Assembly: GCF_963576675.1 (NCBI RefSeq)
Contig: NC_088911.1
Span: 33,130,256-33,194,255, forward strand
Direction of reading: 5' to 3'
Length of the DNA stretch: 64,000 bases
Source: Euphorbia lathyris
Lineage: Eukaryota; Streptophyta; Magnoliopsida; Malpighiales; Euphorbiaceae
Shown one piece after another: positions 22,893-54,305 of this stretch. A program made the translations under genes and the position numbers. The stretch's first letter is position 1. Each line of letters opens with the position of its first letter. The notes under the pieces are model-generated. The model saw only the letters and a program-made list of their open reading frames with translations. It searched no databases and was not told the origin of the DNA.

Positions 22893-23654
22893 TCATGGAT
22901 ATGATATTTGAAATAGATCTAAATGTGGAACCAATAAATTTTGATGTTGATAATGGAGAATCTAGATAAGAGGAACCATAAGCTCATATTGTACCAGATT
23001 TTAACATTGTTCCAGAATATCATGTTCCATTGTTCGACTTAAATACAGAACCCATGTTAGAAGATGATACACGTATGGAAAATCTTGGTACTATATTTTC
23101 CCTTATTGTTTTAGCGTGCCTTGCTATTACAACTTGTTAAATCATGATTTATTTTCATATATATTGCGAATTATGCATATACAGAAGATTTACATGGACC
23201 AAGTAATACAAGAAAGACAAGAAATTTATCCAACACTGAACGTAAAGCAGTTTATGATATGTTGTTACATAAAAGTAGCAATGGAAAACTGCCACTAGGG
23301 ACGACAAAGTTGGTTCCGTCATTTTTTCGATTGGTATTCATGTTGTTCAACGCATTTGGAAACAATGGAAAAATAACAGGTTACATGTTGGTGTATCTCA
23401 CAGAATGACAAAAAATTGTGGTCGTAAGAGAATTGAGGTTAACTTTGATCGATTTCGTGAAATCCCTTTGCATCAGCGGACAATTTTTAGGTCTTTAACT
23501 CATTTGATGGATATGAAAAAGACTACATTATTTAGACGTCTACAATCCAAAAGTTATACGACGACATTCAAATACTATAAAACCTTTTCTTAAGGAAGAA
23601 AATAAGAGATCTCGATTGTAATTTTTCATATCGGTGCTTCACTAAACGAGTATA
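22893..23654 (+). pseudogene. Mariner-like transposase, N-terminal part
   Basis: Pieces in changing frames correspond to the N-terminal half of plant mariner-like transposases. They are an acidic head (FDLNTEPMLEDD at about 23035), the helix-turn-helix start (NLSNTERKAVYDMLLHKSSN near 23228, VVQRIWKQWKN near 23345), a conserved block NCGRKRIEVNFDRFREIPLH (from about 23414), and HSNTIKPFLKEENKRSRL near 23565-23620. Several stops and shifts are present. The reading is broken at 23654 by CACTA element 1 and resumes at 27928. The protein would cut at TA targets. Confidence 0.8.
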
Positions 23655-24542
23655 CACTACGCTAAAACCCTCTTCAGACGACAGTTAAAACCCGTCGTCC
23701 TGCGAGATATAAATCTGTCACGGGGCTCGCTGCCGTCTATTGCACCTTCAGACGACGATCAGGTTCTGTCATGTTTCGTCATCACACATGACATTAGCCT
23801 ATTTGCTTAATGTCATCTTACCCTTGTTACGATGCAGCTTATTTATTACTGCTGTCACCTTTAATGTCATCACATGACATTCTAACAATTAAAACCGCCA
23901 GGTTAGCGTGTGGAAAATTGGCATATTTAATTTGAGATGACAGTTCGTATAATAATTTCTGCTGTTATAGTCTGTTTAGATGGCACAGGTCTTAATCAAT
24001 CATGTTAAAGGATTTTTTTTCATATGAAAGATACATTTATTTTAATGTCTTTTTTATTGCTGTTTAGATGACATTTTTAAAAATTAAAATGTCACTTTAT
24101 GCCTTTTTCTTCGTTTGAATTTCTGGTTTTTATACCTGAATACAGAAACATTCTAAAATATGAAAATGAAATTCTGTATATCAATGGTTTTAATTTTATT
24201 GGAGACTAATACTCGTAATATGTTTACATTTGTGCCTATAACGTCAAATCCATATCTTGAATAACCAATACATTTCTGAATTAAAACACAAAAAAATAAC
24301 CAATATCCATAACGTCAATCCATATCTTGGAGTAATAATTAGGCCTATAATCCGAAAGGTCTTGGTATCTGCAAAAGCCAAGCAAGTCATTAATATTACA
24401 CACATCTCTAAACTCAGTAGTAATTACGTGACCTTTCCCCTTTCACGGCCTTTCACTTACCATAATCATATCACTATAAATATATGCATCATAAACGTTC
24501 AGAATCCATACCTTCAAGAACCAGAAAACTTACCCTGTAACA

Positions 24543-25260
24543 ATGGATCCCCTTGTTGAAACTCCACAAGAGATAATTGCCGACTTGGAGAAATTGTACA
24601 TGGAGAACCCAGAGTGGCTTCTGGCCATAGATGGTATGTAATGTCAATCCATAGTTGTTCTGTACTCTTCCTGATTTCTTCTGTGTATTTCTAATGCCTC
24701 TTCTTGGATGATAACGTACAGGTCCTCTCAATGGTAACTTCTTCAAATGGTCGATCAGAATGCAAGGCCCCCAATACACCCCATATGAAAATGGTGTATT
24801 TGAAATCAGAATCAGCTACCCTCCGGATTTCCCAAACAGACCTGCAAGAGTAATATTAACTCATATCAGTAAGATATAATCACCTACATGAAACATACAC
24901 TAATAAATCTCTCCTCTTATTCTCAGATTTGCTTCTGGAATAGGATATATCATCCTAACGTGGCTCCTCAGGGGTTGATTCAACTTTCCCGTATCCTTAA
25001 TAACCATCGTTTTTCCACTGCCATGGTATAATGCAACCATTTATCTATTTCATTTGATAAACATACAACATCATATTTTTGTTCTAATTATTCTATGCAT
25101 TTTGTAGTGTCTGTGGCACCTATATGATCTACTTCTACAGCCCCACATTGAGGAGCCATATCCTGGGCAAGAAGCAGTTGCTGAGCAATACCGCAGCAAT
25201 AGGGAAGAGTGTGAGGGGCTCGCCCGGATATGGACTGAGGAGTATGCAAAGTGGATATGA
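24543..25260 (+). CDS. Ubiquitin-conjugating E2-like protein lacking the catalytic cysteine
   Basis: Four exons, 24543-24633, 24722-24849, 24927-25025 and 25108-25260, join with GT/AG borders into an uninterrupted frame of 156 codons, the normal size of a bare UBC fold. The landmarks are in order: an N-terminal helix (EIIADLEKLYMENPEWLLAI), the WSIRMQGPQYTPYENGVFEI strand region, ISYPPDFPNRPAR, IYHPN at 80-84 with the conserved HPN, then APQGLIQLSRIL. In active E2 enzymes Cys stands eight residues after the HPN Asn; here that place (92) is Gln. The C-terminal helices follow (LLLQPHIEEPYP, RIWTEEYAKWI). E2 enzymes carry ubiquitin as a thioester, and this one should not form it. It may act like UEV scaffold proteins or may be an idle capture. 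Exon 2 uses GTAATA as donor, chosen because it keeps the family alignment. It lies inside CACTA element 1. Confidence 0.8.
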
Positions 25261-25261
25261 G

Positions 25262-25890
25262 GGTGTCCAAATCTCCTAAACTATCTTGAGTGAGGGAAAG
25301 TAGGATCGAAAGGCAATGCGAGCTCCAAATGTGGCTCTCATTCCAATTCGAAATTTCCTTTCTCCACTCAAAATAGTTAAGGAGAGTTGGACCTTTAATC
25401 CCCCCCCCCCTTTTGTAATATAACGTAGAGCTTTGTGCTCCTAAACTGACCCTTTTGCTCCTTCCACTTGGGTTGTACTCGTTGTACTCTTAACTTGGTA
25501 ATGAGGGTTATGATGATGTCACCACAAGGGACTTTGTTTGTGCTGAATATGAAGAGTGTTCAAATCTTCTAAGCTGTCATGACTAAGTGAAAGGAGAATC
25601 GAAAGGCAATATGAGCTCCAAATGTGGATCTCATTCCAATTCCAAATTTCCTTTCACTAGTCAGAACATCTAAGGAGCTTTGGACCATCAAATAGCACCG
25701 AAAGGCAACACTCATCCCCCTTTTGTAATATAACGTAGAGCTTTGCTATTCAGTTTGTATGTATGTGCAAGTAGACTAAACTGACCCTTTTACAATGCTC
25801 CTTCCACTTGGGTTGTACTCGTGGTACTCTGAACTTGGTAATGAGGTTTATGATGCTGTCAAAATAAGGGACTCTGTTTGTGCTGAATGC
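25262..25890. repeat. Two tandem copies of E2 3'-flanking sequence
   Basis: The first copy runs about 25262-25548 and the second about 25549-25890. Shared phrases include 'gatcgaaaggcaat', 'gagctccaaatgtgg', 'ttttgtaatataacgtagag', 'ccacttgggttgtactcg' and 'ttgtgctgaat'. Spacing is about 290-320 bp. The duplicate covers the likely 3' untranslated region of the E2-like gene. Confidence 0.8.
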
Positions 25891-26139
25891 ATCATAAACC
25901 TATCACCATGTTTAATGTTGTTGTTGCGATATCAAACCGAGTGGAAAGGAACTTATAAGAGTATGGCCAATGCACATACATAACCCTTTATGTAGAGCTT
26001 GTTATTCAGTTCGTATGTATGTATATTCTATCTAATCAAAATATATCTTATCATTTGCAAGCCATATTAGTACATGCAATTAGCCTAAATTTACCCTTTA
26101 ATACATGCTTCATAAACGAACTGCATTCAGAATCCTTAC
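25891..26139. other. CACTA interior, non-coding
   Basis: Contains partial further matches to the preceding repeat ('tgtagagcttgttattcagtt'). No gene. Confidence 0.4.
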
Positions 26140-26527
26140 TTATCATCATAGGTCATGTTCAAATAAAAATGAGTCAGTTGAGTTCATAACATTTTCAGCT
26201 TTAAGAGTATGCCTAACATGCTATAACAAGTAGACAACTTATTCAAGTAGACATATGTATATTCAAGTGAACATGCTATAACAAGTAGACAACTTATTCA
26301 TGCATGTCTATTCCTTACTTATTCAAGACAACTTATTCCTTACTTATCATCATAGGTCATGTTCAAATAAAAAGGAGTCAGATGAGTTTTAACATTTTCA
26401 GCTTTAAGAGTATGCCTAACATGCTATAACAAGTAGACAACTTATTCGTGCATGTCTATTCCTTACTTATTCAAGACAACTTATTCCTTACTTATCATCA
26501 TAGGTCATGTTCAAATAAAAAAGAGTA
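26140..26527. repeat. Irregular tandem repeat in CACTA element 1
   Basis: 'tatcatcataggtcatgttc' recurs at about 26141, 26345 and 26492, with 'gagtatgcctaacatgctat' and 'caagtagacaacttattc' between. Steps of roughly 204 and 148 bp show a compound unit. Confidence 0.8.
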
Positions 26528-27099
26528 TGGTGATATCTTATCATTTGCTCAATCACCCTTTTACAATGTTCCTTTAATACTTGATGCATGATTAATAAGC
26601 TACATGCCCAAATGAACAATCGTACACATACTCATACAGAACATCAAACATAAACATCAACAGAACATCAAACATAAACATGTTTCATACACATACACAT
26701 ACACATACTCAATCACTTCTAGCAGTATAACTCATAGGTGTAAGAGTATTGCCAATCACAATGAACATTCAAAGCTTTAGAGTATGCCTAATCAGCCACA
26801 TGCTTAATGATCATTCATATATAAACTCTATGAGTCATAGCTTCCTAAACAATTATATCTAACCAATCAGTTCATACCAATCATTTCATCATCACCCACA
26901 ACATCATACATATATGTAATCGTTCAGTTCAAACCCACATAACAATATATATACTAAATCAGGCTAGTTTCCTAAATCAATAAGTTCTAGGTTCCTAAAC
27001 AGTACATCAAACATACTCAATCACTTCTAAAGGCATGACCAATCAGTTCAAACCAATATAACATTAATATATATTCATGAAGTTAAAGAAATCTTCCCA
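26528..27099. other. CACTA interior with 'acatac/aacatca' rich sequence
   Basis: Low-complexity sequence with many 'catacaca', 'caatca' and 'cataaacatc' words. No gene. It corresponds in place to the repeat-rich tract at 39900-40330 and 54306-54745 of CACTA element 2. Confidence 0.4.
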
Positions 27100-27525
27100 T
27101 ATGCTAAAGGCATGAACCGATTGACAATCTCTTCAGTCAGCCTTCCCATGTACTGAAGCATTCTTACTAACCCTGCAAATATTATGTTCCAATAAAAAGG
27201 AATCAGATGAGTTCATACCATCTACTGTATCAGGCACTATATTGCCCTAGGTTAATAAAGATAAAGACCCAAGCTTTTCAGCAGTGAATCTAAATACAAT
27301 AAAATCAGTGTAGCTAAGCGAGAGATCTAAACCTTTCAATGATAGGTTTGAAAATCACAAGATCCTTATTCCAGCTGCTGAAATCGACATACACAAAAGT
27401 AATTCAGATGAGGAAAAGATAGATTAAGGAACAATGATACTCTAATAAAATTAGGAACGAAGAAATTATGGCTTACCAGTACCATGTTTCGAGCTACCCA
27501 GTGATTGCATGTTCAAATCAACCAT
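27100..27525 (-). other. Conserved gene-like block shared by both CACTA elements
   Basis: Read on the minus strand there is a candidate first exon (27525-27477) beginning MVDLNMQSLGSSKHG and ending in a GTAAG donor. A block after 'gatttcag' reads SWNKDLVIFKPIIERF, and a later block near 27170-27100 reads MLQYMGRLTEEIVNRFMP. Frames of neighbouring blocks do not join simply, so the exon model is uncertain. The same order of blocks, with the same splice-like borders, lies at 39410-39900 on the plus strand in CACTA element 2. I do not recognise the family. Upstream 'tatataaacc' near 27580 could be a TATA box. Confidence 0.45.
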
Positions 27526-27927
27526 GGAGATAGAGAGGGATGAAGCTCTTGTGTAACCTAAACTGGGGTTTGGGATTAGAGAGAAGGTTTATATATCAGC
27601 TGAAATTTCAGTCAAAATAATAGAGCGCCTAAAATTTGGTATGGCCGCGTAAGTGAAATTTCATTTGCCGCTTTTTGTTTTCGGCATACAATGACATTCA
27701 TTTATTAGAGGTGTCATCTATTGAGCGCATCAAATTTAACAAAAACGCGCATTTTCTTTGGATGACAGGATTCTGTAATCGTAATGTCATCTGAGAATCG
27801 AGCGCATTTTTTATTTCGCCTTCAGATGACATACTGTTAAAATACTGTCACGAAAAATATTCAGACGATATAAAAACAAATGTCTGTCATGTATCTTGTG
27901 TCATGTGAAAGGGAAAATGGCATAGTG

Positions 27928-28762
27928 ATACCACATGATCCAACATTTAAGGATATGTCTAAGATTATCCATATTAATGAGAAGTGGTTCTACATGACAA
28001 AAAAAATGAAAATTATTATTTGCTGCTAGATGAAGAAGATCCTTTGCGTGCCTGCAAAGCAAAAATTTCATTAGGAAGGTCATGTTTTCAGTTGCCTTAG
28101 AGCCTCCGAGGTTTGATGCCGATGGAAATGAAATTTTCTTTGGAGAAATTGGTGTATTTCCTTTGGTTACACAAGAGCTGACTAAACGAAGTAGTGTTAA
28201 TAGAGTTATTGGAAGTTTAGAAACAAAACCAATAAATTTGGTAACTAGAGAAGCTATAAGGTCCTTGTTGATCGGAAAAGTTCTACACGCAATTAAGGAG
28301 AAATGGCCGAGAGAAGATTTTGGATATCCGATATTTATTCAACAAGATAATGCAAGAACACATATTGATCAGGATGATACTGAATTTTGTCAAGCTATTG
28401 CACAAAATGGGTTTGATATTCGTTTGATTCCTACGAACTCTCCAGATTTAAATGTATTGGATCTGGGATTTTTTAGTGTCATTCAGTCCTTAGAATATAA
28501 GGAGTCATCTACCACATTTGATGAACTTATACAAGCTGTAGTTAAAGCATTCGAAGATTTTCCTGCATGAAAGTCTAACCGAATATTTCTAGCATTGCAG
28601 TTGTGCATGATAGAAATAATGAAATCAAAAGGTTCCCAAAAATATAAAATCCCACATATGAAAAAGGTTGTGTTAGAAAGAGAAGGTCGATTGCCTACTC
28701 ATATGAAATATGACTATGAATTGGTACAAGAAGTTCTAAGTTATCTAAATAGTGTCACTTAA
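27928..28762 (+). pseudogene. Mariner-like transposase, catalytic part
   Basis: After the CACTA insertion the mariner frame resumes with IIHINEKWFYMTKK, which holds the first catalytic position region. It continues in the open stretch 28082-28570 (FDADGNEIFFGEIGVFPLVT, KEKWPREDFGYPIFIQQDNA, LIPTNSPDLNVLDLGFF). QQDNARTH gives the second acid and NSPDLNVLD the third, the DD39D-type pattern of plant mariner-like elements. The tail KIPHMKKVVLEREGRLPTH ends near 28762. One stop at about 28570 and a shift near 28080 break it. A relic, but a nearly complete one if the CACTA is ignored. Confidence 0.85.
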
Positions 28763-33987: not shown

Positions 33988-34480
33988 CTGAAGGTAAATA
34001 TTCGATTTTTTTCATATGTTGTAGTTATTTTGTTCTTAATTATGTTGTTGTTTTATTTTTATTAAACAATAGTTGTTATAGTTTCATCTTTCAGATTCAT
34101 TTCTGTTGTTACCCAGGTTCTATACCTCTCGCTATCTTATCCATGTTTTCTTTTTTATTTGTCTTTTTTTTTTCCAAACTGATAGCTTCAATTGAAGAAA
34201 TCCGACAGAAATAGAAGATGCATGAACAACTAAAACCGGAAAACACAAAAGTGTCAAAAATTATAAGAAATTCTTATGTTTCTCAAGGTAATTATTCGAT
34301 TTTTTTTTTCATATGTTGTAGTTATTTTTGTTCTCAATTGTGTTGTTTTCTTTTTTATCAAACAATAGTTGTTATAGTTTCATTTTTCAGAGATGAAATT
34401 CCATTTTGTCGTCCAGGTTCCATACCTCTTGCTACCTTATCCATGTTTTCTTTTTTATTTGTCTTTTTTTTTTCAAAATG
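33988..34480. repeat. Direct duplication inside the Helitron
   Basis: About 33988-34185 and 34280-34478 share 'tcatatgttgtagttatttt', 'aacaatagttgttatagttt' and 'ttatccatgttttctttttt'. The copies are about 290 bp apart. Confidence 0.8.
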
Positions 34481-36447
34481 ATTAAAATAAAGATTTTGTA
34501 AATTTGCATTCTTTTTTATTATATGTTCCTAGGTGTTATCGTTTCGATTGCTAACTCTTAACTAAAATTTAGATTTTCGACTTTATATGAACTCAATTTA
34601 TGAACTTAATTTTTAGTTTTAATTGAAGTTAAATTAATTTTTCTAATTCGGAACATGTTGAAATCCACTCATTTTTTTAGTTTGAGTTTAGCTAATAGAT
34701 CTGGATTGTATTTTTTATTTTTATGCATTTGGTTACAAATAGATATAAAGTTTCACACGATAGTTGTTCATTGAAGTTTGAGACATATTAAATAAAATAT
34801 TAAAGAGATATTGGAATATTATACTTACAATGAAGTTTATTTCAATATAAATTAGGTTATATTATTATTATTATTATTATCAAGAAGTTATGTTTTCCCA
34901 ATTTTCTAGACAAGGAGATTGTAAGCGTCTAATACGCTTGATAAGATGTTTATTCTTGAAGAATGTGGATTATGCTAGATAAAAATTCAAAATCAAGGTA
35001 AATAAAAATAAATTTTGATGCTCAAAATCCTAAAAATGTACATTAATTATGGATATTGAGATAATTGCTTTTGCAACATTGGCTTATATAATTTTTAACT
35101 ATTATATTATGGTTCGTACAAAATTGTTAGTATTTCAAGAGTTTTTAACAGATGAAAATGAAATATGATCATAGGACAAATTATTGAAAAATATTAATTA
35201 AGAAAATATTATTATTTGAATCTCTTCAAATTCTCAAATGTTGAGCATAATGATTCTAATTAATATAATTAATTTCACATATTAATTATAAAACGTTTTT
35301 TTTTTGTATTGAGTGGTTACAGTTGCGATTTAATTCTATTTAACTAAAATTAATTTATGGACTTAATACTTCATTAAGAAAAAATAAAATGTTTAATTAA
35401 TGGGCAAAAAATATTTTCACTCTCCTCTTTATACGCTTATGTCTCGACATTCTCTCTTATTTTCAAAAAAAAAAAAACCCGAGAGGAAGATGGTTCTCTC
35501 CTAATTATCTTTTTCGTCCCTTCATTTTTTTTTCAATTCTATTGTTTGTTTTTCTTACTTGCAAAATTCAAGAATATATAATTATTAGAAAATATTAATG
35601 AAGTCAAATAAGTGATATCTGCGAGTATGACTGATATTCTATATAGTGAAAGAATGAAGAACAAATTGATCGAATGTCGCGATGAGATATTACGAGATGA
35701 AAATAGGAGAAATCATCATCTTAAACTGATTCAATTAGATATATTGGGTTATTGTAGCAGAATGAATAATTGAATTCGAATACTTAGTGATCATGAAATT
35801 CCATTAACCAAAATAATTATCATCAAAATGAATTTGTGACTAATTCTTACGAATTTTTTTTTTTATATGTAACATATTGAATTGATAAAATTTCTTCATA
35901 TGCAACATTAGAAAAGTATTGATTGTAATAGTTTATAGAATAATATATTGATGTTGCTTCCATTTTAACATAGATTGTAATTCTTTTGTATCATATATAT
36001 AATATTTAATTTTAATTGTAGTTTAATTCAATTTTTGTTTAACCTATATTGTAATTCTTTTGTATCGTAAATATAATATTTAATTTTAATTATAGTTTAA
36101 TTCAATTTTTGGTTTTTTATTATATTTTAAAATATTTCTTAATTAATCTGTTATTTTATTATTATTGTTTCACAAAATATTTGAAATATGAAAATGTATT
36201 AAAATTCCTAAAAAGTACAAATCATTGAATTTTGTAAAAATAAATAAATCATTCATCTTTAGTTAAAATTCTATAAAAAAAAGTAGTCAATTATTTTTAA
36301 AGTTAATTTAATTTGAATTATCATTAAAAAATATATATTAATTTCAAATATACATAATATAAATTTTTTTCATAGCATGATATAAAATTATTTAAAAATA
36401 AATATGTCAATTTATTTATTTATTTAAATTATATAAAAGTTTCATAC

Positions 36448-36823: not shown

Positions 36824-37230
36824 TATCACTATGTCATTTTTCCTTTCGTATGATAAAAGATACATGACAGATATTTGTTTTCGTGTCGTCTAATTATTTT
36901 TCGTGACCGTATATTAAAATAATGTCATCTGAAAGCTTAAATATAAACCAGCTCAATTAACATGTGGCCTTCCGATGACAATTCTGTCATCAAAAGAAAA
37001 CGCGCGTTTAATTCAAAATTTACTTAATCATCATATGACACTTGTGATAAATGACTCTCATGGTATTCAGAAAACAAAAAAAAAAAGCAGCAAATGAAAT
37101 TTCACTTACACGGCCAACTAAAACAGATCCCAAATTTAAGGCGCTCAATACGTTTGACTGAAATTTCACATCTCATATATAAACCATCTCTCTCATCCCA
37201 AATCCCAAATTAGGTTTCGCCTGCAGCGCA

Positions 37231-39380
37231 TGTCAAACCCGATCCAAAATTGAATCGAATATGACAGTGAGACATTGCCACAGACGTGAACGAGTCGGAA
37301 GTAACATCTCACAATCAAATATTAAGAATTACAAATCTTGTTTGAACTTACAAACATTTTCTACATATACTTTTACATTTGTAAAAGGTCGAAAATCATT
37401 TATAATTTCTAATTACGAATCCTTTCCTTGTGCGTTTTACCAAAATGAGTTCGAAACATAGAAAATTACTCCATTTCTAACATGTTAACTTTTAATTTGC
37501 CTAATCTCACAAACTAACACCATAATTGGATATTCAAACCAAAATCCGGCATACCACAACTTCTTTATCCTTTCACAATTGGCAACTCGGTTGCCTAAAC
37601 ATTCACAAGCACAAAACAAACCTATATCTACATGTACAAAATGGTATGCAATACCCTAGAAGACGACTTGGACAATTGTGGCCGTATCCAATCCTCGCCC
37701 TAGTGTCGAACACTTCCCTCAGTACCTCGTACTTCTTCGCCTAAAAACATTAAAATATTTAAAAATATGAGACAAAAATCTCAGTAAGCAACTATCAACT
37801 ATAAAAACTAGTTTTTACGTAAAATAGCTATATGTATACATTTGTGAAAACATTTAACCAAACCAAACCTTAAACTTATTAACTTGTAAACAACATCCAA
37901 TTAAAACAGAATTTTAATCAATAACCTCAAATCAAACTTAATCAAAACACAACGATTCTTATGTAAACATTTACTAAAAACCGAAGTTCGAATCAAATTC
38001 AATATCGTATCCATCACCGAGTATCCCCTCGTAAATCAATCCACAACACGCAAACATAATCGAGACGTCTCTTTAACCATGCCTAATCCCGTATTGGTCT
38101 TACCCAACACTTCGCTGCCAATACCCGACTAGGTCTTTAGACTGTGTACACAGGCCATGTTCCTCACTGAATATGGTCTTCAAATATCAAACCACCCGTC
38201 CGGACTACTCCTGATGGATACAAACTTTACCTAAAATCCAACCAACTTCAATTGTATACATTTTCTCATCAAATAGATCAAACTTTACTACAATCATCAA
38301 TAAATCGAAATCCAACATTTACTGAACCAAAATAGCAATTGAACCCCTGAAGAAATCCAATTTAACACCAATTGACCAAAATATCATTAAAACCCTTAAA
38401 GAAATCCAATTGAACACTAATTGAACCAAAATAACATTAAAACGCTTAAAGAAATCCAATTGAACACTAATTGAACCAAAATAACATTAAAACCCTTAAA
38501 CAAATTCAAATCACATCAATTGAACCCAAATAACACTTAAACCCTTAAGAAAACCAATTCAACATCAATTGAACTAAATATCCCTTAAGAAAACCAATTC
38601 AACATCAATTGAACCAAATAATAATCAAACTCTTAAGAAAATCAATTCAACATCAAGGTATGAATTAAAATAGTCCAAAATTATCATTGTGAACTCATTT
38701 CCTTCAAACTTGAACACAAACTCAAATCAACAACCAATACTCAAATCATTTCTAAGAAAACCCTTAGGAGACAAATTCATGAAATTTTATAGCTCAATAT
38801 ACATATATTTATACATGCAAACCAAAACTAATTGATAGTTACTTACCTTAGCCTAAATTTGAGAACAACACCACCAAAACCCTAAATATGTCCCAAATCT
38901 GCCTAGCCCGTATTCTTTGTACACTACTCCAAATCAAAATCCCTCGGTCAGAAGTTTCTTCTATATGTCTAGAGTCTCCAGTTAAAATTTGAGGTGATTT
39001 GGACGGTTAGATCTCCAGCAACACTCAAAATGGTGGAGTTGCCCTGTTTTTGGTGGTGGTTGAAGGTGGAGGAGAAAGGAGAGAAAATGGAGAAGAAGGA
39101 TGTAGAAGCTCAATGTTTATGATCTAAATGATCATAATTCACAAAATAAGGCTTTATAATATATAGCCCACTATAATGATTGTAAAATATCATTTTTGGT
39201 CCCCCAAAACCCAATTTCTTTTTAAAATTCACTTTAAACTTATAATCACTTCTAAAAATATGCAATTACCCTCTAAACTATACCCGTAACATCCAATTAA
39301 TCGACTAATCCTAAAACGAATATAATATAACTTAGGTTTTGGGGTATAATAAAGAAAAAATTAAGGACACGGACGTGACA
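37231..39380 (-). mobile_element. Solo LTR, Ty3/gypsy chromovirus-like
   Basis: TGTCA...TGACA ends are flanked by an exact 5-bp GCGCA (37226-37230 and 39381-39385). No internal domain, primer site or polypurine tract is present, so it is a solo LTR left by recombination, or a non-coding element. In minus orientation it starts TGTCACGTCCGTG and contains 'gcttactgagatttttgtctca', a phrase like the LTR transcript-end region of some plant chromoviruses. Orientation and family are inference. It interrupts the 5' part of the conserved block in CACTA element 2. Confidence 0.7.
38349..38657. repeat. 50-bp tandem repeat in the solo LTR
   Basis: About six copies of a unit containing 'gaaatccaattgaacac' and 'aattgaaccaaaataacatt' and ending 'aaaaccctt'. 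Later copies diverge and shorten to about 40-48 bp. Confidence 0.85.
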
Positions 39381-39385
39381 GCGCA

Positions 39386-39900
39386 GACTTCATCTCTCTC
39401 ACCCCTCCCTTTGACTATCTCTGGTTACTTTCTATATGCAAATCACTGGGACTGAGATTGAAACACGATAATGGTAAGCCATATTTACTTCATTCCTCGA
39501 TGTATTAGAGTTTTATTGCTCCTTAATCTATCTTTTTCTTATCCGTTTTACTCTTGTGTATGTGGATTTCAGCAGTTGGAATATGGATCTATATTAATTT
39601 TCAGACTTACCGTTGAAAAGGTTAGATCTTTCGCTTAGATACACTGATTTTACTGTATTCATTGTTAGATTCACTAATGAAAAGCTTGGGTCTTTATCTT
39701 ACAGGTGGGTAATATACTTCGTGATGCTGTTGTGGGTGATGCTGAGATAGGTAGATCTTGCTCTTTATATTTACAAATATTATTAACATTAGGGATTATG
39801 AACTGATCTGATTCCTTTTTATTTGAACATAATATTTGCAGGGATAGTAAAGGAAGGTTGGTTGAAGAGATGGTTAATTAGTTGATGCTTATAACATGGG
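39386..39900 (+). other. CACTA element 2 copy of the shared gene-like block
   Basis: It aligns with 27100-27525 read on the opposite strand: 'atgcaaatcactggga', GTAAGCC at about 39474, 'ggatttcagcagttggaat' near 39567, 'gaaaagcttgggtctttatctt' near 39680, and 'cataatatttgcaggg' near 39830. In addition it has an exon-like piece after 'ttacag' near 39705 (VGNILRDAVVGDAEI) that is deleted in element 1. Stops are present, so this copy looks decayed. Confidence 0.5.
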
Positions 39901-40330
39901 AAGATTTCTTTAACTTATTGAGTATATGTATGTGATTGAATGTTATCTCATTGAGTATGTGTATGAAGCTTGTATGAATATGTATGTGCATAAAGCTTGT
40001 ATTGGTATGAACTGATTTCACTTGTATACCTTAACCAGACATGAATATGTAGTAAAGGGTTGTGTATGAAGCATAGTCATATAGTGAAGGGTAGTGTATG
40101 GATCATAGTGGGTTATATTGGTATGAACTGATTGGTTGAATACTTTAGCCAGACATGAATATGTAGTGAAGGGTTGTGTATGAAGTATAGTCATATAGTT
40201 GTGTATGAAGCATAGTCATATATGAAGTATATATAGTAAAGGGATATATCTATTTCATTGAAATATATGTGAGTTATATAATATGAATTGATTTTGTTTG
40301 TATACTTTAGTTAGACATGAGTATGTGTAT
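39901..40330. repeat. Degenerate tandem repeat of CACTA element 2
   Basis: Repeated phrases 'ggtatgaactgatt', 'agacatgaatatgtagt', 'gggttgtgtatgaag' and 'catagtcatatag' occur at intervals of about 40-130 bp. The tract continues at 54306 beyond the Athila insertion. Confidence 0.75.
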
Positions 40331-41612
40331 TGTTAGGCATGAAATTGACTAAGATTAACAGATAATTTATAAGGGAATTCAGGTAATTTTTATATCATTT
40401 TGTAAGGAATAAGGGCTAATTAATGTCCTTGTGCAGATAAGCAAAGAAAAATGCTAAACTCGCTGGAAACAGCTTGTTTCGCTAATGCCAATGAGGAGTG
40501 GAGCCTTACTTGTATCCAGCGGTTAAACGCCGGATTATCCAATGACGGACAGCGACAGATCGTTGGTGGCAGTGAAAGGAAAGTGGCAGGAGGGCAGGTG
40601 AAAGTGTGTGGCGATGGGATTGCCCAAAGTAGCATGATGATTTGAAGTCTCACCCCCTTGAGTGTTCAAGGGTTAATCTAAAAGTTAATCATTTCTTTAG
40701 TTTGATAATTGTAGTAAGTAGTTGACTTTGTTGTAAGAAGGGTACGAAAGTTTTACCAATTTTGGACAGTCTCGGTCTTTTCCCTTTAAATAGGAAAAGC
40801 AGAGAAGGTTTATCGGATATATTTTATTTTCTTAGCTTTAGTTTTTTAACAAGTAGAATAGAAGGAGAAGAGAGCTCTCATTGAGTCTCAAGCTGTAACA
40901 ACAACCTTCCTCTGCTCACTGCTCGATATGAGTGAGTAGACATTTTGAACGGGCACGGCATGGCCGGCCCGGTGATGTAAGTTTTACAACGTTTTAATGA
41001 TATTTAGTATTTTGCCAATGTTGTGATCAATGAGGATTTAACTTTCTTGCGTAAGCATGTATGTATGTGTTAGATGAATGTTAGGACACTGCTTTCATCT
41101 TCACCGATATCTCTATTGATCTCCCAACTTCGAAGCTGACAAGTTAGAAGGTTGTGTCGAGGGTTTTCTCATCTAGAAATGCAGTTTTGTTCTTAATGCT
41201 AGAAAGAACGTATCTTTAGGATGCTAAAGATGTTAGTAAATCTTAGGAGTTTGAGAACACACGACAGTTGACTCAAACTCACTCGAAAACTGATACTTTG
41301 GCTTCGTTGGCATTATCTTTTATTCATCGAATGTTGTAAGATGTAACACACCGTGTTCGGTCATGTAAAGCCTGTTCTCTTCCTTTAATCGTTGAAAAGT
41401 AACCTTATTTCCTTGATTGAGTATCCTGCCTGAGTCACTAAAACAACCAATATCAAACAAACAACCATAAAGGAAGCCACTTGTATAACACACACTGTTT
41501 AGCAACAATTTCTCTTATTTATTTGTATCACAATCCCTGTGGAGACGATACTCACTTATCACTTTATTACTTGTATCTAGTGCACTTGCTAGAGTCTGTT
41601 TACAGGACAACA
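40331..41612 (+). repeat. 5' LTR of the Athila-like element
   Basis: TG...CA ends. 'ctttaaatagg' near 40785-40800 is a candidate TATA region. 'ggccggcccgg' near 40960 marks a short GC-rich palindrome. ORF-like frames within it are repeated in the other LTR and are not genes. Confidence 0.93.
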
Positions 41613-41618
41613 AGTTTT

Positions 41619-41636
41619 TAGCGCCGTTGCCGGGGA
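41619..41636 (+). promoter_or_regulatory. Primer binding site (tRNA-Asp type)
   Basis: TAGCGCCGTTGCCGGGGA, six bases after the LTR, matches the usual Athila primer site TGGCGCC... with one mismatch at its second base. Confidence 0.8.
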
Positions 41637-43597
41637 TTGAGAGCAACAAATTTATAGCTGAAATTTCTGTAAAACAGGGTGTTTTTAATCTGTGTGTTAA
41701 GGCGTGCAGGAAAAAAAAGGGTCATTTTTTCTCGTTTATGCGTAGAGCTGCACCTCCTGTTTTTCCTATCGATCTCGAATTAGAGAGAACGTGTAGACGA
41801 AACAAAGCGGGAGCTCGACGTGCTAGACAAAGAGAAAGGCAAAGAGAGAGAAGAATGGCTGGAAGGGAAGGACCAGAACAACCAGTTCCACCAAACCAAG
41901 AAGAGGAGGGAGAAAATAATAACCCTCCTGTGATGAGAATCAGAGACTACTCTAGGCCAACTACCGAGGGACACTCATCGTGTATCGTATTGCCCAACGA
42001 GGGAAACAACATGTTCGAAGTAAAAGGGTCCATGATACAAATGATCCAAGCCTCGGTGCAATTTAATGGGTTTCAATCTGAAGATCCTAATGGGCATCTT
42101 CAAGAATTCATTACCTTGTGCAACACATTCAGGTCGAACAGAGGTGTCTCTGATGATGTGATCAGATTAAAGCTTTTCCCTTTTTCACTAAGGGATAAAG
42201 CAAAAACATGGCTGCGGAATTTACAGCCTGGAACGATCACGAGTTGGGAAGAAATGGCACGAGCTTTTCTAATGAAGTATTTTCCGCCTCGACAAGCCAT
42301 TAAGCTACGAAATGAAGTGTCACGCTTCATACAGGATGAAGATGAGTCGTTGGCAGAAGCATGGGAAAGATACAAGGAGCTGCTCAGAAGGGTGCCAAAT
42401 CATGGTATCCCCATGTGGATGCAAATGCAAAATTTTTACAATGGCGCGACCAACGTTTACAAAATCCAGATCGAATCTATCGCGAATGGTAACCCGGAAG
42501 ATCTAGAGCCACAAGCTTTATATGACCTAATAGAGAAAGTGGTCAGCATGAGTTACAACTGGCATTCGTCACGAAGTGAAGGAAAAAGGACAGGAAACGA
42601 GGATGTCATTTCAAAACTAACAAGCCAAGTAGAACAGCTTACCCGGCAGCTGGGAAAGATAAATGTCTCGTCCATTCACAATGAACCGCCATTTAGTGAA
42701 CCACCATTCACTGAAAGTTGTGGTTTTTGTGGAGGAGCTCATTTCAATATCAACTGTCCTGGAGTAAAGCAAGGAAAAGGCACATGGGCTGAATGCGACT
42801 ACACAGGGTACAATCAGAGGAATCAGCCCAACCGTTACTCTAACACTTACAACTCGGAAACAAGGAACCATCCAAATTTTGGATGGACAGGCCAATCGGA
42901 CCAGCAAGGATAGTATCAAGAGCAGCCGAGGTATCAACAACAGCAAGGAGGACATTACCAAAGATAACCTCAGCAGCATTATAAGCAACCTGTGCCACAA
43001 AAGGAAGAAGTCGAACCAGATATGAAAACAATGATGATGCAGTTCATGAAACGGACGCATGCATCGATCAAGAATCTGGAAACACAAGTCCACCAGATCG
43101 CCGCGTCCACATCAAAAGGAAAAGGAATAATGCCGAGCAATACTGAGCCAAATCCTAAAGGCGACGTCATGGCAATCACCTTGAGGTCTGGTAAGGAAAC
43201 TCAACCAGTCGTTTTATCTAACAAAGAGGCTGAGCGTGCAGGAACATCCAAAGAGGCTGAAGGGGAACTGGAACAAGCTGTTCCTGGAAATGAAGAAACG
43301 AGGAAGGATAACCAAGCAAGTAAGCCAAATCAAGAGGAGGAAAGGGCTTGTAAACCACCACAGCCGTATGTCCCACCGGTGCCATATCCAACACGGCTGA
43401 TCAACAAGAAGTTGGAGGAGCAGAATTCTAAAGTGTTGGACACTTTGAGGAAATTGCACATCAACATACCTTTTGTGGAAGCACTGGCACAGATGCCGAC
43501 ATACGCAAAATTCCTCAAAGATATCTTGTCGAACAAGAAGAAACTGGAGAACATTTCCATGATACAACTCAACAGAGACTGTTCGTCCATACTCTAA
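41627..43597 (+). pseudogene. Athila gag polyprotein
   Basis: The first 428 codons are open (41627-42913). An Arg-rich head (RRARQRERQRERRM) is followed by the retrotransposon gag core (LKLFPFSLRDKAKTWLRNLQ, SWEEMARAFLMKYFPPRQAI, RRVPNHGIPMWMQMQNFYNG) and a zinc knuckle CGFCGGAHFNINC. After TAG at 42911 and a further TAA near 42967 the same frame continues with a Gln-rich tract and a conserved block (VPYPTRLINKKLEEQ, INIPFVEALAQMPTYAKFLK) to TAA at 43595. The product would form the particle. The start may be an internal ATG, since 41627 overlaps the primer site. Confidence 0.88.
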
Positions 43598-44104
43598 AAC
43601 AAGCAGCAGCTTCCAAAGAAGCTAAAAGATCCAGGGAGTTTTTCGATTCCTTGTTCAATTGGGAAGCTGACTATTGAAAATGCACTTTGTGATCTAGGAG
43701 CTAGCATAAACCTAATGCCATATTCTGTGTATGCACAACTCGGGTTAGGAGAACCACAACCCACTCGTATGTCTATTCAATTAGCTGATCGTTCTGTATG
43801 CTATCCTAGGGGAGTAGTAGAAGACGTGTTAGTCCAAGTAGGAAAATTCATTTTGCCCGTTGATTTCATTATAATGGATATTGACGAAGATTTGCATGTC
43901 CCTATTATCCTAGGAAGACCATTTCTAGCAACAGGAAAAGCATTGATAGATGTAGGAGAGGGAAAGTTATTCTTAAGGATAAATGGTGAGGAAGTGATAT
44001 TTAAAATGAATGAAGCAATGAGGCGTGCGAATAATAATGATGACACTTGCTGTTTCTTAGATGATTTTCAGAGTCTTACTACTTTCAGGAACAGGACACA
44101 TTAG
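43598..44104 (+). pseudogene. Athila aspartic protease region
   Basis: The same frame as gag continues after the stop at 43595. PCSIGKLTIENALCDLGASI holds the active-site motif in its Athila form (DLGA), followed by MPYSVYAQLGLGE and the flap-like IILGRPFLATGKALIDVGEG. It ends at a TAG at 44102 after what looks like a one-base shift near 44085, since the pol frame already fits at about 44090. It would cleave the gag-pol precursor. Confidence 0.85.
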
Positions 44105-47100
44105 AAACTTTATTGGGGAGAGAGGTGAACATATACGAAGAAACAGGCTGTTCCATTGAAAGCAACTTTCCGACACCTCCGTTAGATCCTACTGTTCCAA
44201 CTCATCAAGAACCACCAGAGGTACCCACTGTGCCTGTGTCTAAGCCAGAATTGAAGCCGTTGCCTGAACATCTCGAGTATGCGTTCCTGGAACCACCAAG
44301 TGGAAGTCCTGTCATAATATCATCAAAATTAACTCCTGACCAAAAGGCGAAACTGATGGCGGTCTTGCGAAGAAACAAGGCGGCAATAGCATGGAAAATT
44401 GATGACATAAAAGGAATTAGCTCGGCAGTCTGTGTTCATAGAATCTTGATGGAAAAGGACCACCGACCAACTGTTCAGCCGCAACGTAGGCTAAATCCCC
44501 ACATGAAGGAGGTTGTGAGAAAGGAGGTGATCAAACTTCTCGATGCTGGCATTATCTACCCAATATCTGATAGTGTGTGGACAAGCCCTGTCCACGTTGT
44601 GCCAAAGAAAGGCGGAACAACCATAGTCCTAAATGAAAAGGACGAGCTAGTACCCACAAGAACAATAACAGGGTGGAGAGTTTGCGTCGACTACAGAAAG
44701 CTTAATGAAGCCACAAGGAAGGACCATTTCCCCTTACCCTTCATTGACCAGATGTTGGAACGACTGGCGGGCTATGCATTCTATTGTTTTCTTGATGGGT
44801 ATTCAGGATACAACCAAATCGCAATTCATTGCGACGACCAAGAGAAAACCACGTTCACATGTCCATATGGGACTTATGCTTACAGAAGGATGCCTTTCGG
44901 ACTGTGCAACGCTCCTGCCACTTTTCAAAGATGTATGATGTCAATTTTTCATGACATGGTGGAGCGGACTGTGGAAATTTTTATGGATGACTTCTCGGTC
45001 TATGGAAGTTCATTCGATAGCTGTCTAATCAACCTTGAAGCGGTGCTCGCGCGGTGCAAGGAGACTAATTTAGTCTTGAACTGGGAAAAGTGCCACTTTA
45101 TGGTCAATGGAGGAATTGTCCTAGGGCATAAAATTTTTGAGAAAGGGATGGAAGTGGACAAGGCAAAAGTGGAAGTAATCGAGAAGCTGGGTGTGCCTGC
45201 GAACGTCAAAGATGTGAGAAGTTTTTTGGGGCACGCAGGGTTTTATCGTCGGTTTATAAAAGATTTTTCAAAGATAGCACTTCCATTGTCAGCCCTACTC
45301 CATAAGGAAGCCGAGTTCTCTTTTAATGCAGACTGTTTGAAGGCCTTTGAGCTCTTAAAGACTAAGCTGATCAACTCACCTATACTAGCAGGACCAGATT
45401 GGGAGCAACCTTTTGAAATAATGTGCGACGCGAGCGACACTTGTGTGGGAGCTGTTCTTGAACAGAGGATTGAGAAGAGGTTTCGACCTATTTACTATGC
45501 CAGCAAAACATTGAACATTGCCCAGCAAAACTATACAACTACCGAGAAGGAACTTCTGGCGGTTGTGTATGCTTTCGACAAGTTCAGGCCCTACTTGGTT
45601 TTATCCAGGGTGATTGTTCACACATATCACGCAGCGTTGCGATACTTGTTCGCGAAACAAGATGCTAAGCCAAGGTTGATCCGATGGTTGCTATTACTGC
45701 AGGAGTTCGATTTGGAAATTAAGGATAAAAAGGGAACGACGAATGTTGCTGCAGATCATTTGTCAAGGATAGATCACAAGGGCAGGGTTGAACAAATAGA
45801 AATCGTGGAAAGGTTTCCTGACGAGCATCTGTATGCGGCGCAGTCTGCGCCATGGTTCGCCGATATAGCTAATTACCTTGCAACTTCGCTCAAACCACAC
45901 AACCTATCCACAAATCAAAAAAGGAAGTTTTTCTCCGAAATCAAATATTATTTTTGGGATGACCCTTACCTTTTCAGGTTGTGCGCGGACCAAATCATTC
46001 GAAGATGCATATCACAAGAAGAGGGACAGGATGTTCTCAGCCACTGTCATAACCGCGAAGCAGGAGGACACCATAGTGCAAGCCGTACCGCGGCAAAGGT
46101 TCTCCAATCAGGTTTTTTCTGGCCCACTCTTTTTAAGGATGCTAATGCATTCGTTGGAACTTGCAATGAGTGCCAACGAACGGGAAACATTTCAGCTCAA
46201 AATGCTATGCCCCTAACCAACATAGTCGTGTGCGAAATTTTTGACATCTGGGGCATAGATTTTATGGGACCATTCCCAACTTCCCAAGGGAATAAATACA
46301 TCCTAGTGGCTGTGGATTATGTGAGCAAATGGGTCGAAGCAATAGCAAGTCCCACCAATGACGCCCGCGTGGTAGTCAAATTTCTGAAAAGACTGTTCGC
46401 CAGATTCGGGGTCCCACGAGCGATCATCAGTGATCAAAGGACCCACTTCTGTAATGCAAAATTTGAAAAATTAATGGGAAAACTTGGAGTCTCACACAGG
46501 GTTGCCACACCTTACCATCCACAAACCAGTGGGCAGGTGGAGATCTCCAATAGAGAAATAAAAAGAATCTTAGAGAAATCGTTGGCAACTCTCGAAAGGA
46601 TTGGGCAAACAAGCTCGATGATGCTCTTTGGGCATATCGTACCGCTTATAAAACACCGATTGGAATGTCTCCTTTTCGGTTGTTATACGGGAAATCTTGT
46701 CACTTGCCGGTGGAAATGGAACACCGCGCATTTTGGGCGTTAACATTTTTAAATTTTGAGACACAGGCTGTTGGTGAACAGAGAAGTTTACAGCTGAGCG
46801 AAATGGAGGAATTCAGGCTGTTCTCATACGAAAATGCGGTGAATTACAAAGCCAGGACCAAGCAGTGGCACGATAAAAAGCTCATGAACAAGGTGTTCCA
46901 TGAAGGACAAAACGTCCTTCTTTTCAATTCACGATTGAGGCTCTTTCCGGGAAAGCTCAAGTCAAGATGGTCAGGACCATTCATTGTAAACCGTGTATTT
47001 GCATATGGAGCTGTTGAAATTTTCAAAGATGGGGGTGATCCTTTTAAGGTGAACGGACAAAGATTAAAACCATATTTAGAGAACGATCACACAAGGAAGA

Positions 47101-47138
47101 TCGATACTGTTCATTTCCAGGATCCCCCAGGACAGTAA
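44105..47138 (+). pseudogene. Athila pol: reverse transcriptase, RNase H, integrase
   Basis: The open frame 44113-46743 gives, in order, an RT with [47 protein letters not shown] and catalytic FMDDFSVYG (about 44980), then RNase H ([28 protein letters not shown]) and integrase with an HHCC finger ([27 protein letters not shown]) and core acids in [11 protein letters not shown] and [11 protein letters not shown] one-base shift near 46600 moves the last part into another frame (46665-47138: [40 protein letters not shown]). Downstream of the shift there are no further stops until 47136. Otherwise well preserved. Confidence 0.92.
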
Positions 47139-47728
47139 AAGCAAGAGAACAGGGTGTCCGCTACAAACACCAATTGTAGCACAAGTAACTTTGCATTTTA
47201 TTGATTTTTATCTTTACTTTCTATTTTTATTTTTATTTTTATTTCCGTGGTGTAAAGTGTGTTTGAAGTTGATTTCATCTTGAGTAATTTCTGCCTAGGC
47301 ACAATTGTAAAACCTAAAAATCCTTCCAAGGGTGAGGTAGTACAATTGTACCTGTGTTGTAGGGAAAGGGAAAATCGTAGAGATTTGGGCGGTAGGAATT
47401 TGTTATTAAAGCTAGGAAAAGTGGAACGTCCACTCCTATGCCAAATAGGCAATCATACCACCTGTTTTTCTCCTCGATAAGATTGAACGGTTGGGGGGAT
47501 ATAAATGCCAAAAATTAAATCTTGACCGTTCATCTACCCTCATTCTGATTCAAAAACACGCACCTTTCTGCCGATTTGTCCAGGTGGCCGACTTTGATTC
47601 GGCCTCAAACTGACAGATTGGCAAGAAGACGCCTCGTTTCCCTACTTAAAGAAGCTTTATCTCAATTCAGTCCTTCTATCACCATATTTCTTTCTTTTCT
47701 TTGAGATTTCTTTTCACAAAGGCAGTTC
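47139..47728. other. Non-coding spacer after pol
   Basis: No gene. 'ctatttttatttttatttttattt' near 47221 is low-complexity. Confidence 0.5.
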
Positions 47729-49164
47729 ATGATCTGTGCCCTATACCACTGGAAAACCCTACTTAAACTTGAAAGCGAAATGAGGACCCGAGGCTCGGGC
47801 AAAAACGTGAAAATTGAGGGTTCTTCCAAGAAAGAAAAAGCAAAGGCAAAAATGGCGGAACCATGCACTGTGGCGTTTTTCCCAGATGAGAAGCTGGTCA
47901 AGAAACTCTCCCAGAAGACGCCTCTGTTCAGGCATACTATGATGAGCTAGCGAAACTTCAGTTCGGACCCATCCGAACAGTTTGCTGGGAAACCCTAAAA
48001 AGGCTTAAGCTCGAGGATCGTGTACGCACCCTCATGAAGTCTGGTCATTTTGAATGTTTCTTTGAAATGACGGAACCGGCCTATCGGGAACTAACACTCG
48101 AGTTCTTGGCAACTTTTAAGCACAATGCGGAGATAACCGATCCTGATGAAGAGGGAAAGTTTTGCTTCAGGCTCATGGGTCACTCCCAAAGGCCTTCGCT
48201 TAACTTGTTCAACCAGATGCTTGGTGCTGCCGACGATGACGATCTAGAATCCGAGAGCTATAAAGAGGCATTCACCACAACGCCTGATGTTTTCGACCCT
48301 GTGGCCTTCTGGGAATCACTTTCAGGACAGAAACATTATGACGGCAGTTCGACCAAGGCGTCCAATATCGATGATTATGCTGTTCGGTATTTGCACAAGT
48401 TGATCTCTGGTACAATCTTCGCCCGGGAAAACCAAGCCACCATGCCACATGCAGATCTCACCGCATTGTGGAGTATGGCAGTTGGACCGAGAATGAATTT
48501 GGGATTCTGGTTTGGAGAGTACATCAGCGCTTTTTCCAAGAAAAACTCGTCAGTCATCTGTTGTGGCAGCATAGTCACCAGAATTGCGGAGTCAATCAGG
48601 GTTTTTAAACCTAAAGACCACTCTCGTCTCACGATTGTGAATCACCCTGACCCCATTGATCTCAAGAGCCTCCAAAAGATGTTATTCGGAAAGATTGTGA
48701 ATGGGAAGTGGGTCTGGATGTCTGATTTTGTTACATCTCGGCAGACTGAGAGCCGGAAAAGGAAAAGCGAGCCTACCCTTTCAGTGTCGTCAGATTCCGA
48801 GCAAGTCGAGAAGCCTAAAGACTTGGCATTTTATAAGAAATGTGCAAAGATGACCTGCGAGGATGTGATGGATCGATTCAATGCCATGTTTGCCCAGAAT
48901 CAGGCAAACCGCGAAATGATATTCGCCATGGAGCAAAAGTACGCATCGCAACAGGGCGAGATCGATATGCTCAAGAGCCTGTGCTTTGAGGAGCATGCCA
49001 AAGAAAGCCCCTCTGGTTTCTCTGTGAAAAGTCCGGTAAGACAAGTGCCTGAAACACCTGCTAGTGCCAATGTTAAGGCTAACGCTGCCGCCTCCTCAAA
49101 GGAGGAGGGTATTCCTGCCCCTGTGGATAGAGAGGTTAACTCCTCTCTTTCCCATCACGCCTGA
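47729..49164 (+). pseudogene. Athila extra ORF (the 'env-like' position), function unknown
   Basis: A Lys-rich head (47729-47950: KNVKIEGSSKKEKAKAKMAE) and a 376-codon frame (48034-49164) belong together. The second frame is already coding-like upstream from about 47910, so a one-base shift near there separates them. Visible parts are GHFECFFEMTEPAYRELTLE, FCFRLMGHSQRPSLNLFNQM, SGTIFARENQATMPHADLTA, and a C-terminal coiled-coil-like stretch (DRFNAMFAQNQANREMIF). This matches the Arabidopsis retrotransposon ORF-1 family found after pol in Athila. I see no signal peptide or clear membrane anchor, so calling it an envelope would go beyond the sequence. Confidence 0.7.
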
Positions 49165-50700
49165 TCTGACCAAATATTCGCTGTCCTAGCATCTGGTAAC
49201 CTCTAACACCCTTACTCTTTCATGTTTTGTTCCGCCTATCTTGTACAATCTGCTGCCGTGATTATTAACATTGAGGATAATGTTTTGTTTTCTTTTGGGG
49301 GTGGGGATTGTGCTGTGTGCATCACAATTTATAATTTGTGCGGAAATAACATGATAAATGCTACAAATCGGTTGGTTTAATTTAGTGATTTGATGTAGAA
49401 CAAATATCCCTTGAGAATCCTTGTGCATATCCTTGGTAATTATTGTCTGCTTCCATTGTTTTCTTTCCGCTTATGTTTGTTCCATCTAGAGAACTGAGTA
49501 GGAATCATAGAGCAGACTGTGCATGCTATTTGTTGTTAGGTTGTGTTAATTGCTTGTGTGTATTTCGTGTTCCCTAATTCAGGAAGTTCCAAAAATTTTG
49601 AAATCTTTAATTCCTCTGTCAAAATTAGTAATCATGGCCTTACTGCAATTTTCCCCGAAAATAGTGAGAATTTGAGCCTTATAATGCATCCATGGTATGC
49701 ATTGTTTTTTTGAGTGGGCCAGCACTCACTATCTTTAGGGAGAATTTGCCTTGGTACCCTGATGAAACGGTGATTGGTTCTGATTTTCATAGGAGGAAAA
49801 AGGCATTTAGTTATCCCCTCCGCTACACAAAAGGCACCTATGCTATGCACCCCAATTATTAGGATAACCAAGTCGAGCCATAACCTGCTCTTTCTGAATA
49901 ACCACAAATAATAGCCCTCTCCCTTCACTTAAACTCTAAAATACCTTGAGTTCTGTCTTATGCCTCGAATTGCCAATTGTTTAAAATAAAAATCATGTGC
50001 TTAAGTTATGCGAATATAAGCAATTGAGCAAACATCGTTTAAGGAAAAGATTGAATGAACTAGGGAACATAATGTGGGGAGGAAGGAACCTTTATATTCA
50101 AAAGAGTACTGGGTTATGAGTGAACAGGTTGTGTAGACAAAGTGTGTGTAAACAACAATCATTATAGGATGCGTATGATAAATAAAGTGCAAAAAGACAG
50201 AATTCATACACTGAAATAGCTTTTCACTGTCAAACCAGAGCCCTAGCCTAACATTACAACCTTTACAAAGTCCTTTGGACTATGTTAGGAGGAACTTTGA
50301 CCCATAGACTCGGGATCAATAGGCAAACTCACACCCTAAGGGTGTGGTGTCTGAGCTGAGAAGTGAAATAGCATTTGTTTTCCTATGGCAAAAAGATGCC
50401 ATGTGAGAGTGAGTGAAGTATTCCATTCCTTAGTGAGGCATGTCTGGCTGTTGGTAACTCTTTGTGAAAAAGGAAGTCTAAATTTTAAGATTTGAGGAAT
50501 TTCTTGAGCAAAAGGACACAATTTTCAAAACAAGCTTTTACTCTTCGATGAAACCTTAGCATGCATCTGTTCATCTCCTAATAGTGCCAAACGTTCTATG
50601 TTTCCTTACTCGTCGTTCTCAGTTATTAAGCTAATTTCATTCCTAACCCTTTTTGTTTATTCTCTTCTTACAATTTGTTGCTTGAGGACAAGCAAAGGTT
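49165..50700. other. Athila long 3' non-coding region
   Basis: About 1.5 kb without coding signs between the last ORF and the polypurine tract, as is usual in Athila elements. 'ttttgggggtgggga' near 49294-49308 could be an extra polypurine tract. Confidence 0.6.
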
Positions 50701-50715
50701 CAATTTGGGGGTATT
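50701..50715 (+). promoter_or_regulatory. Polypurine tract
   Basis: CAATTTGGGGGTATT directly before the 3' LTR, the Athila form of the plus-strand primer. Confidence 0.85.
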
Positions 50716-54300: not shown

Positions 54301-54305
54301 TGTAT

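Follow-up and report, generated by a model that had tools for sequence, protein, structure and literature searches.

A CACTA transposon family of Euphorbia lathyris carries an E2-like gene that has lost its catalytic cysteine

A stretch of 64,000 nucleotides of Euphorbia lathyris DNA (the window) contains a four-exon gene for an E2-like protein lying inside a CACTA transposon. The locus raises the question of whether a mobile element family has taken up, and kept, a gene of the ubiquitin pathway. The original prediction held that the frame is intact, that the gene lies wholly within the element, and that its retention points to recent capture or to selection. We analysed the gene, the element around it, its relatives in the genome and the pattern of change among them.

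An E2-like gene inside a CACTA element

The gene and its immediate surroundings consist of the following features (copy types are those defined below).

24394-24536, + strand: presumed promoter containing TATAAATA, with TATAAA at 24475; a homologous stretch is found in the C-type copy L026 and, more weakly, in the A-type copy L010
24543-24633, + strand: exon 1 of the pseudo-E2 gene, ending in phase 1
24722-24849, + strand: exon 2 of the pseudo-E2 gene
24927-25025, + strand: exon 3 of the pseudo-E2 gene, with the YHPN motif retained and the catalytic Cys replaced by Gln92 (codon CAA)
25108-25260, + strand: exon 4 of the pseudo-E2 gene, with the stop codon
25261-25890, + strand: two diverged tandem copies of the gene's 3′ sequence (345-column alignment, 74% identical)

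The predicted four exons, standard splice borders and 156-codon frame proved exact in coordinates and codon count: the spliced coding sequence (CDS) is 471 nt long (156 codons plus TGA), and all three introns are GT-AG, in phases 1, 0 and 0. The open frame did not arise by chance, because base-shuffled versions of the CDS contain a mean of 8.1 stops and are stop-free in 0.04% of trials. Residues 31-145 of the encoded protein match Pfam UQ_con (E 1.5e-23), the one family found in it, and its top PDB matches are to UBE2D2 (E 9.2e-22). The UQ_con match together with the retained HPN motif suggests, at the level of sequence, a UBC fold. That part of the prediction stands, but the protein is not an ordinary E2, the loss of the catalytic Cys having been overlooked. 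When the protein is aligned with 35 other E2s, the position of Gln92 is Cys in all 35, that of Phe102 is Trp in all 35 and that of Thr104 is Pro in 34, while His-Pro-Asn is retained. Because the catalytic Cys is lost the window protein cannot be an ordinary E2, and with the active-site Cys, Trp and Pro all absent an active E2 is ruled out; the dead active site leads to the prediction that any effect of the protein would be exerted by binding. The Trp/Pro loop lost here is retained in COP10.

The gene lies within the following element.

23652-23654: target-site duplication ATA, left copy
23655-27927, + strand: CACTA element with the E2-like gene, 4,273 bp, with ends CACTACGC at 23655 and GGCATAGTG at 27927
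23655-24232, + strand: left end with its subterminal region and ATGACA-type motifs; identity is 74-95% across 23 long family loci (in two of them over short stretches)
27069-27927, + strand: right subterminal region and end, common to other family members
27928-27930: target-site duplication ATA, right copy
23200-28700, + strand: decayed, presumably mariner-like transposase gene that forms the insertion site, with a DDE_3 match at 28082-28570

Both ends and the perfect ATA duplication were found as originally described, with the gene wholly between them. The ATA match alone is weak evidence for this element, because the window contains 18 CACTA/TAGTG pairs spaced 0.5-20 kb, the 23655-27927 pair among them, that share a 3-bp flank; the call is decisively supported by other members in which both of these ends recur, each time with a matching duplication of that member's own. 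ATGACAT and GATGACA each occur seven times in the 600 terminal bases of the element and four times each in those of a second member in the window (both strands counted). No transposase match was found by Pfam in the 10 frames scanned of the 37 open frames of at least 45 codons in the element. An E2 domain, introns at host-type positions and frames scanned that lack a transposase match fit the definition of a Pack-CACTA element. Much of the element's interior, at 25261-26560, is taken up by degenerate tandem copies of the gene's 3′ sequence and of right-subterminal pieces. When the flanks of the element are joined, the residues on both sides of the insertion site lie in one frame, with old stops nearby, and resemble what we take to be a mariner transposase. 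The DDE_3 match at 28082-28570 (E 1.6e-5) falls under Pfam's cut-off, and the piece immediately right of the insertion site, searched by itself, gave no Pfam match. A scan against Rfam gave no match at curated thresholds.

The second member of the family in the window is itself interrupted.

36827-55419, − strand: second CACTA member of the same family, flanked by ATA at either end; an LTR retrotransposon and an LTR-like insert break it up
about 40331-54300: LTR retrotransposon inside the second CACTA member, young, its LTRs 98.8% identical over 1,207 bp
about 37231-39380: LTR-like insert in the second CACTA member, with TGCGC on both sides

One LTR of the retrotransposon is in turn interrupted at about 51922-54216. 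The E2-like gene was not detected between 36827 and 55419, and alignment of the gene region with the interior of this member falls within the range of shuffled sequence (equalled by 10 of 100 shuffles). Direct repeats about 76% identical to each other lie outside both sides of the second member, at 34180-35147 and 55751-56804.

A dispersed family of transposon-borne genes

A UQ_con profile search of the 1.02-Gb genome yielded 1,464 first-look candidates; scoring was carried out for 150 of them, and all 150 were matches. From the UQ_con list 57 loci (L009-L065) were taken by their hit pattern, a non-random choice from a list in which Pfam ranking favours open frames. A transposon-type E2-like gene is present in 54 of the 57, the other three being ordinary E2 genes (L012, L013 and L062). 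By type, the 54 comprise 25 loci like the window (window-type, W), 26 A-type, two C-type and one E-type, and locus L032 contains at least two further, broken genes of a D type. Element ends could be searched for in 23 of the 54 loci, the other 31 being 1.1-1.4 kb around the gene. The left end of the window element is matched, in some cases partly, in 23 of the 25 loci longer than 5 kb; the ordinary genes L012 and L013 lack such a match. Both ends were located in eight of the 23 long loci, where they delimit elements of 4,177-4,856 bp, and all eight are flanked by matching 3-bp duplications (TAA, ACG, TCT, TTG, AGA, GAT, AAT and GAT; seven different sequences). Thus the claim that a CACTA family spreads a gene of ubiquitin-pathway type is borne out by 54 of the 57 loci, and further CACTA copies with the same cargo exist, each of the two-ended ones with duplications of its own. 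The gene is multi-copy and dispersed, not a single-copy host gene.

Nor do stops interrupt every other copy: seven of the 26 window-type copies are fully intact when the window copy is counted, and six of 25 when it is not. Two of 13 A-type models are intact (13 models kept; L020, L025, L026, L027 and L052 left out as partial). The catalytic position of the 26 window-type copies is occupied by His in 12, Gln in eight, Arg in four and Tyr in one; the remaining copy, the frameshifted L048, is the sole one with a Cys codon (TGT) there. Elsewhere in the family this position is Ser in all 13 A-type models, Tyr in the E-type gene L063, and Ala and Ser in two D-type genes.

The elements are mosaic. 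Between A-type loci and the window the gene is 56-59% identical and the left end mostly 74-79%. At 26546-27068, identity to the window reaches 83-95% in 10 of 14 A-type loci, and the segment was not found in the other four. At L032:118-5163, a window-type element has several D-subfamily E2-like genes and two more family left ends a few kb away, so that nested or tandem elements are clustered at this locus. The E-type gene L063 resembles both W and A; its first intron, whose acceptor border is hard to place, is stop-free in the tblastn frame.

Origin of the captured gene

The host UBC8-type genes L012 and L013, in which the catalytic Cys is present, share all three intron positions with the transposon gene, which therefore was captured as genomic DNA and not as a retrocopy. 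Intron 1 has been lost in A-type copies and is apparently retained in the C-type copy L026. The window protein is 33% identical to Arabidopsis UBC8, and W-type and A-type proteins share 39-43% identity. These low values do not support the recent capture that had been proposed, and a very recent one is rejected on the identity to UBC8.

FastTree placed the window protein in the UBC4/5 group, at a node for which a support value is absent, and the deeper support in the iqtree analysis is 56-78. A UEV group of maize falls inside UBC4/5, the class nearest to the window protein (PMC4659669). In a tree that includes two UBC8-type PDB chains, and from which the ordinary E2 genes of the Euphorbia lathyris genome were left out, the nine transposon genes included group together in a single clade (UFBoot 94). 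Adjoining this clade (UFBoot 100) is a metagenomic E2, P0036, which has an intact Cys and has a two-residue insertion in common with the transposon genes; this grouping may reflect long-branch attraction, because the P0036 branch is long.

The sequence upstream of the gene bears on the number of captures. Aligned from the left end of the element to the ATG, the window scores 136 against the C-type copy L026 and 76 against the A-type copy L010, the best of 300 shuffles being 50 in each case. When the alignment is restricted to the 150 bases nearest the ATG, the score against L026 is 65 (best shuffle 43), whereas the match to the A type is weak (score 37, reached by 3 of 300 shuffles). L009 and L019, for which the start codon was not located, do not enter this comparison. 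TATAAATA stands at the same place upstream of the ATG in the C-type and A-type copies compared. The upstream homology therefore favours a single capture followed by divergence inside the transposon, although an A-type protein also resembles exon 2 of the ordinary host gene L062 (see below). Taken with the single clade, and with homology that is seen in one C-type copy and more weakly in one A-type copy, the sequences suggest a single capture that we regard as partly shown.

A protein-database search with the window protein returned six candidates and one match, an E2 that is 35% identical over 63% of the query. The database includes plants (a retrotransposon protein gave 7,911 matches, the best 120 of which span many plants, one of them Euphorbia lathyris), and the look-up requires shared exact words, so that the absence of a close relative is a limited negative.

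Selection and the fate of the gene

Among window-type genes, dN/dS values and variant counts were obtained from 22 of the 26 copies (L034, L040, L046 and L048 were dropped). Pooled pN/pS is 0.87 (231 pairs), and dN/dS is 0.75 in the 21 pairs formed by the seven intact copies. Omega is 1.04 for shared and 1.3 for private variants; stops number three among shared variants (4.2 expected) and seven among private ones (4.7 expected). Divergence within the type is 0.041 in introns, 0.060 in the CDS and 0.085 in the flanks. Window-type copies drift nearly neutrally, so the open frame of the window copy needs no selection, and the argument from an intact frame to selection falls, for this copy, on the pN/pS of 0.87. 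From the divergence within the type, neutral decay of an intact founder would leave about 0.24 of the 26 copies intact, near the seven observed; this observed fraction is likely an upper estimate, because the UQ_con list favours open frames.

Comparison of the W and A subfamilies (20 pairs) gave dN of 0.53-0.59, dS of 0.73-1.09 and omega of 0.52-0.76. For the pair tested, omega is 0.64 (bootstrap 0.41-0.96), and a neutral null in which stops are forbidden and nothing else is has a mean of 0.74-0.78 (P 0.19-0.26). Because omega lies within this null, replacement-wide constraint between W and A is not shown, and we reject the simple claim that an omega below 1 between subfamilies reveals selection. 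Thus the dN/dS comparison that had been suggested as a check gives near-neutrality within the window type and a value between subfamilies that is not below the neutral null.

The sites at which the two subfamilies agree nevertheless follow the conservation of other E2s. Entropy in other E2s averages 1.34 bits at the 58 of 142 sites identical between W and A and 2.08 at the changed sites, a difference reached by 0 of 20,000 permutations and by none of the neutral simulations run at two divergences (1,000 each, 0 of 2,000 in total), in which simulated W-A identity was 0.37 and 0.31 (observed, 0.41). The catalytic positions are among the sites lost in both subfamilies. Within window-type copies, retention of E2-conserved sites is weak (P 0.045). 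Intact copies are found in both W and A, although dS between them is 0.73-1.09. This pattern of retention fits a protein of which source copies preserve the fold, but not a catalytic activity, as the majority of copies degenerate. The proposal that the frame is retained by selection therefore fails for the window copy and the near-neutral window type, and finds a sign in its favour between W and A, in the retained E2-conserved sites.

Taking these findings together, we think it probable that an E2 captured once became a pseudo-E2 that the CACTA family has kept. A CACTA lineage would have captured a whole UBC4/5-type (UBC8-type) E2 gene as DNA, introns included. Inside the element the gene would then have lost the catalytic Cys and the active-site Trp and Pro while retaining the E2 fold, a promoter and a position close to the left end, and it would have diversified into the subfamilies W, A, C, D and E, amplified by transposition.

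An unlikely but substantial alternative is that the gene is passive Pack-CACTA cargo: a functionless gene that was recently amplified, its intact copies simply young, with the conservation between W and A a legacy of life in the host, diverged host E2 variants having been captured repeatedly or swapped between elements. The near-neutral drift of the window type and an intact fraction of 7/26, close to the roughly 0.24 × 26 predicted by neutral decay, are what it would lead one to expect, as are the mosaic elements (with A-type loci 83-95% identical to the window at 26546-27068 and their genes 56-59%) and the second CACTA member without a detected gene. Repeated capture would also accord with the weak A-type match over the 150 bases closest to the start codon, and with the 48% identity over 50 residues between an A-type protein and exon 2 of the ordinary host gene L062. 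It is opposed by the single clade of the nine transposon genes among the E2s tested (two UBC8-type PDB chains, the Euphorbia lathyris host genes left out), by the upstream homology, which is clear in one C-type copy and weaker in one A-type copy, and by the 11 loci resembling ordinary E2 genes, to which the window protein is at most 37.5% identical.

We consider it very unlikely that the captured gene matters as nucleic acid, its relatedness to an essential host gene shielding the element from silencing or feeding small RNAs. This idea of 'camouflage' or epigenetic conflict has been published with regard to genes captured by CACTA and other transposons (PMC8978399, PMC13317346), and CpG observed/expected is 0.35 in the coding part, compared with 0.66 across the window, as expected for methylated DNA. 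However, the gene is probably too diverged from host UBC8-type genes for homology-based cross-silencing, judging from the 33% protein identity to Arabidopsis UBC8, and retention follows E2-conserved sites of the protein. That a resident host gene came by chance to lie between two CACTA ends, a reading that would suit the presumed promoter, the introns and the intact frame, is ruled out for practical purposes by the same type of gene lying between the same ends in dispersed elements, all eight of those with both ends located having matching duplications of their own.

If the family has indeed kept a pseudo-E2, source copies would presumably be transcribed and spliced, and the protein may act as a non-catalytic E2 variant whose binding partner could be ubiquitin, an E2, an E3 or something else. 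Such action is proposed because proteins of the UEV/COP10 type act without a catalytic Cys; COP10 and UEV1 are described as E2-like proteins without the Cys that act in complexes with partners (PMC4659669). The window protein is like them in being E2-like with the catalytic Cys absent, but they are encoded by host genes whereas it is transposon cargo. By such binding the pseudo-E2 might shift host ubiquitination in the element's favour, through transposase stability or escape from silencing. Our tentative proposal, which may well prove wrong, is that the CACTA-encoded pseudo-E2 acts on host ubiquitination (transposase turnover or the silencing machinery) and that selection on source copies maintains it.

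Plant DNA transposons commonly capture genes, and the captured fragments are described as being, in the usual case, non-functional pseudogenes (PMC13317346). Captured genes are reported in CACTA elements of Chenopodium (PMC8978399), and Pack-CACTA or Pack-TYPE elements resemble those described here in being non-autonomous CACTA elements that contain host coding DNA, multiply by transposition and have a mosaic interior (PMC8903248). There, however, the cargo is a shuffled gene fragment (PMC8903248), whereas here it is a complete multi-exon gene that occurs in diverged subfamilies with E2-conserved sites retained. The Tpn1 family of morning glory is also non-autonomous, with conserved terminal regions and a captured genic interior, but its interiors are described as substituted by captured host sequence (PMC5105172), whereas one gene lineage persists here. 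The closest transposon parallel is Kaonashi (KIU), in which an Ulp1 protease domain is conserved in non-TIR (VANDAL) MULEs with a benefit to the element described as unknown; there, too, a domain of a ubiquitin-like pathway was captured by a transposon lineage and conserved (PMC13317346). The element described here differs in its CACTA ends, in an E2 fold in place of an Ulp1 protease and in the loss of the catalytic residue, nor did a VANC-like anti-silencing gene come to notice in it; membership in KIU is rejected, since the window protein matches UQ_con and not Ulp1 and the ends are CACTA, not those of a non-TIR MULE. Within the titles and abstract openings of the literature searched, none concerned E2-like transposon cargo, and the passages on gene-capturing plant transposons mention ubiquitin once, with regard to Ulp1-type proteases. 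Gene-capturing CACTA elements are thus already known, and E2-like cargo is the variant for which, in the titles and abstract openings searched, no precedent was located. If the retention of a pseudo-E2 is real, the family would make the recruitment of a host pathway by a transposon open to test, with catalysis lost and E2-conserved sites kept, and its many copies, intact and broken, permit a full test of selection.

At L005-L008 (G000:C2:137600055-137687693), a cluster of genes has open frames of 355-367 codons with an E2 domain about 34-35% identical to UBC8, and two shorter hits lie nearby.
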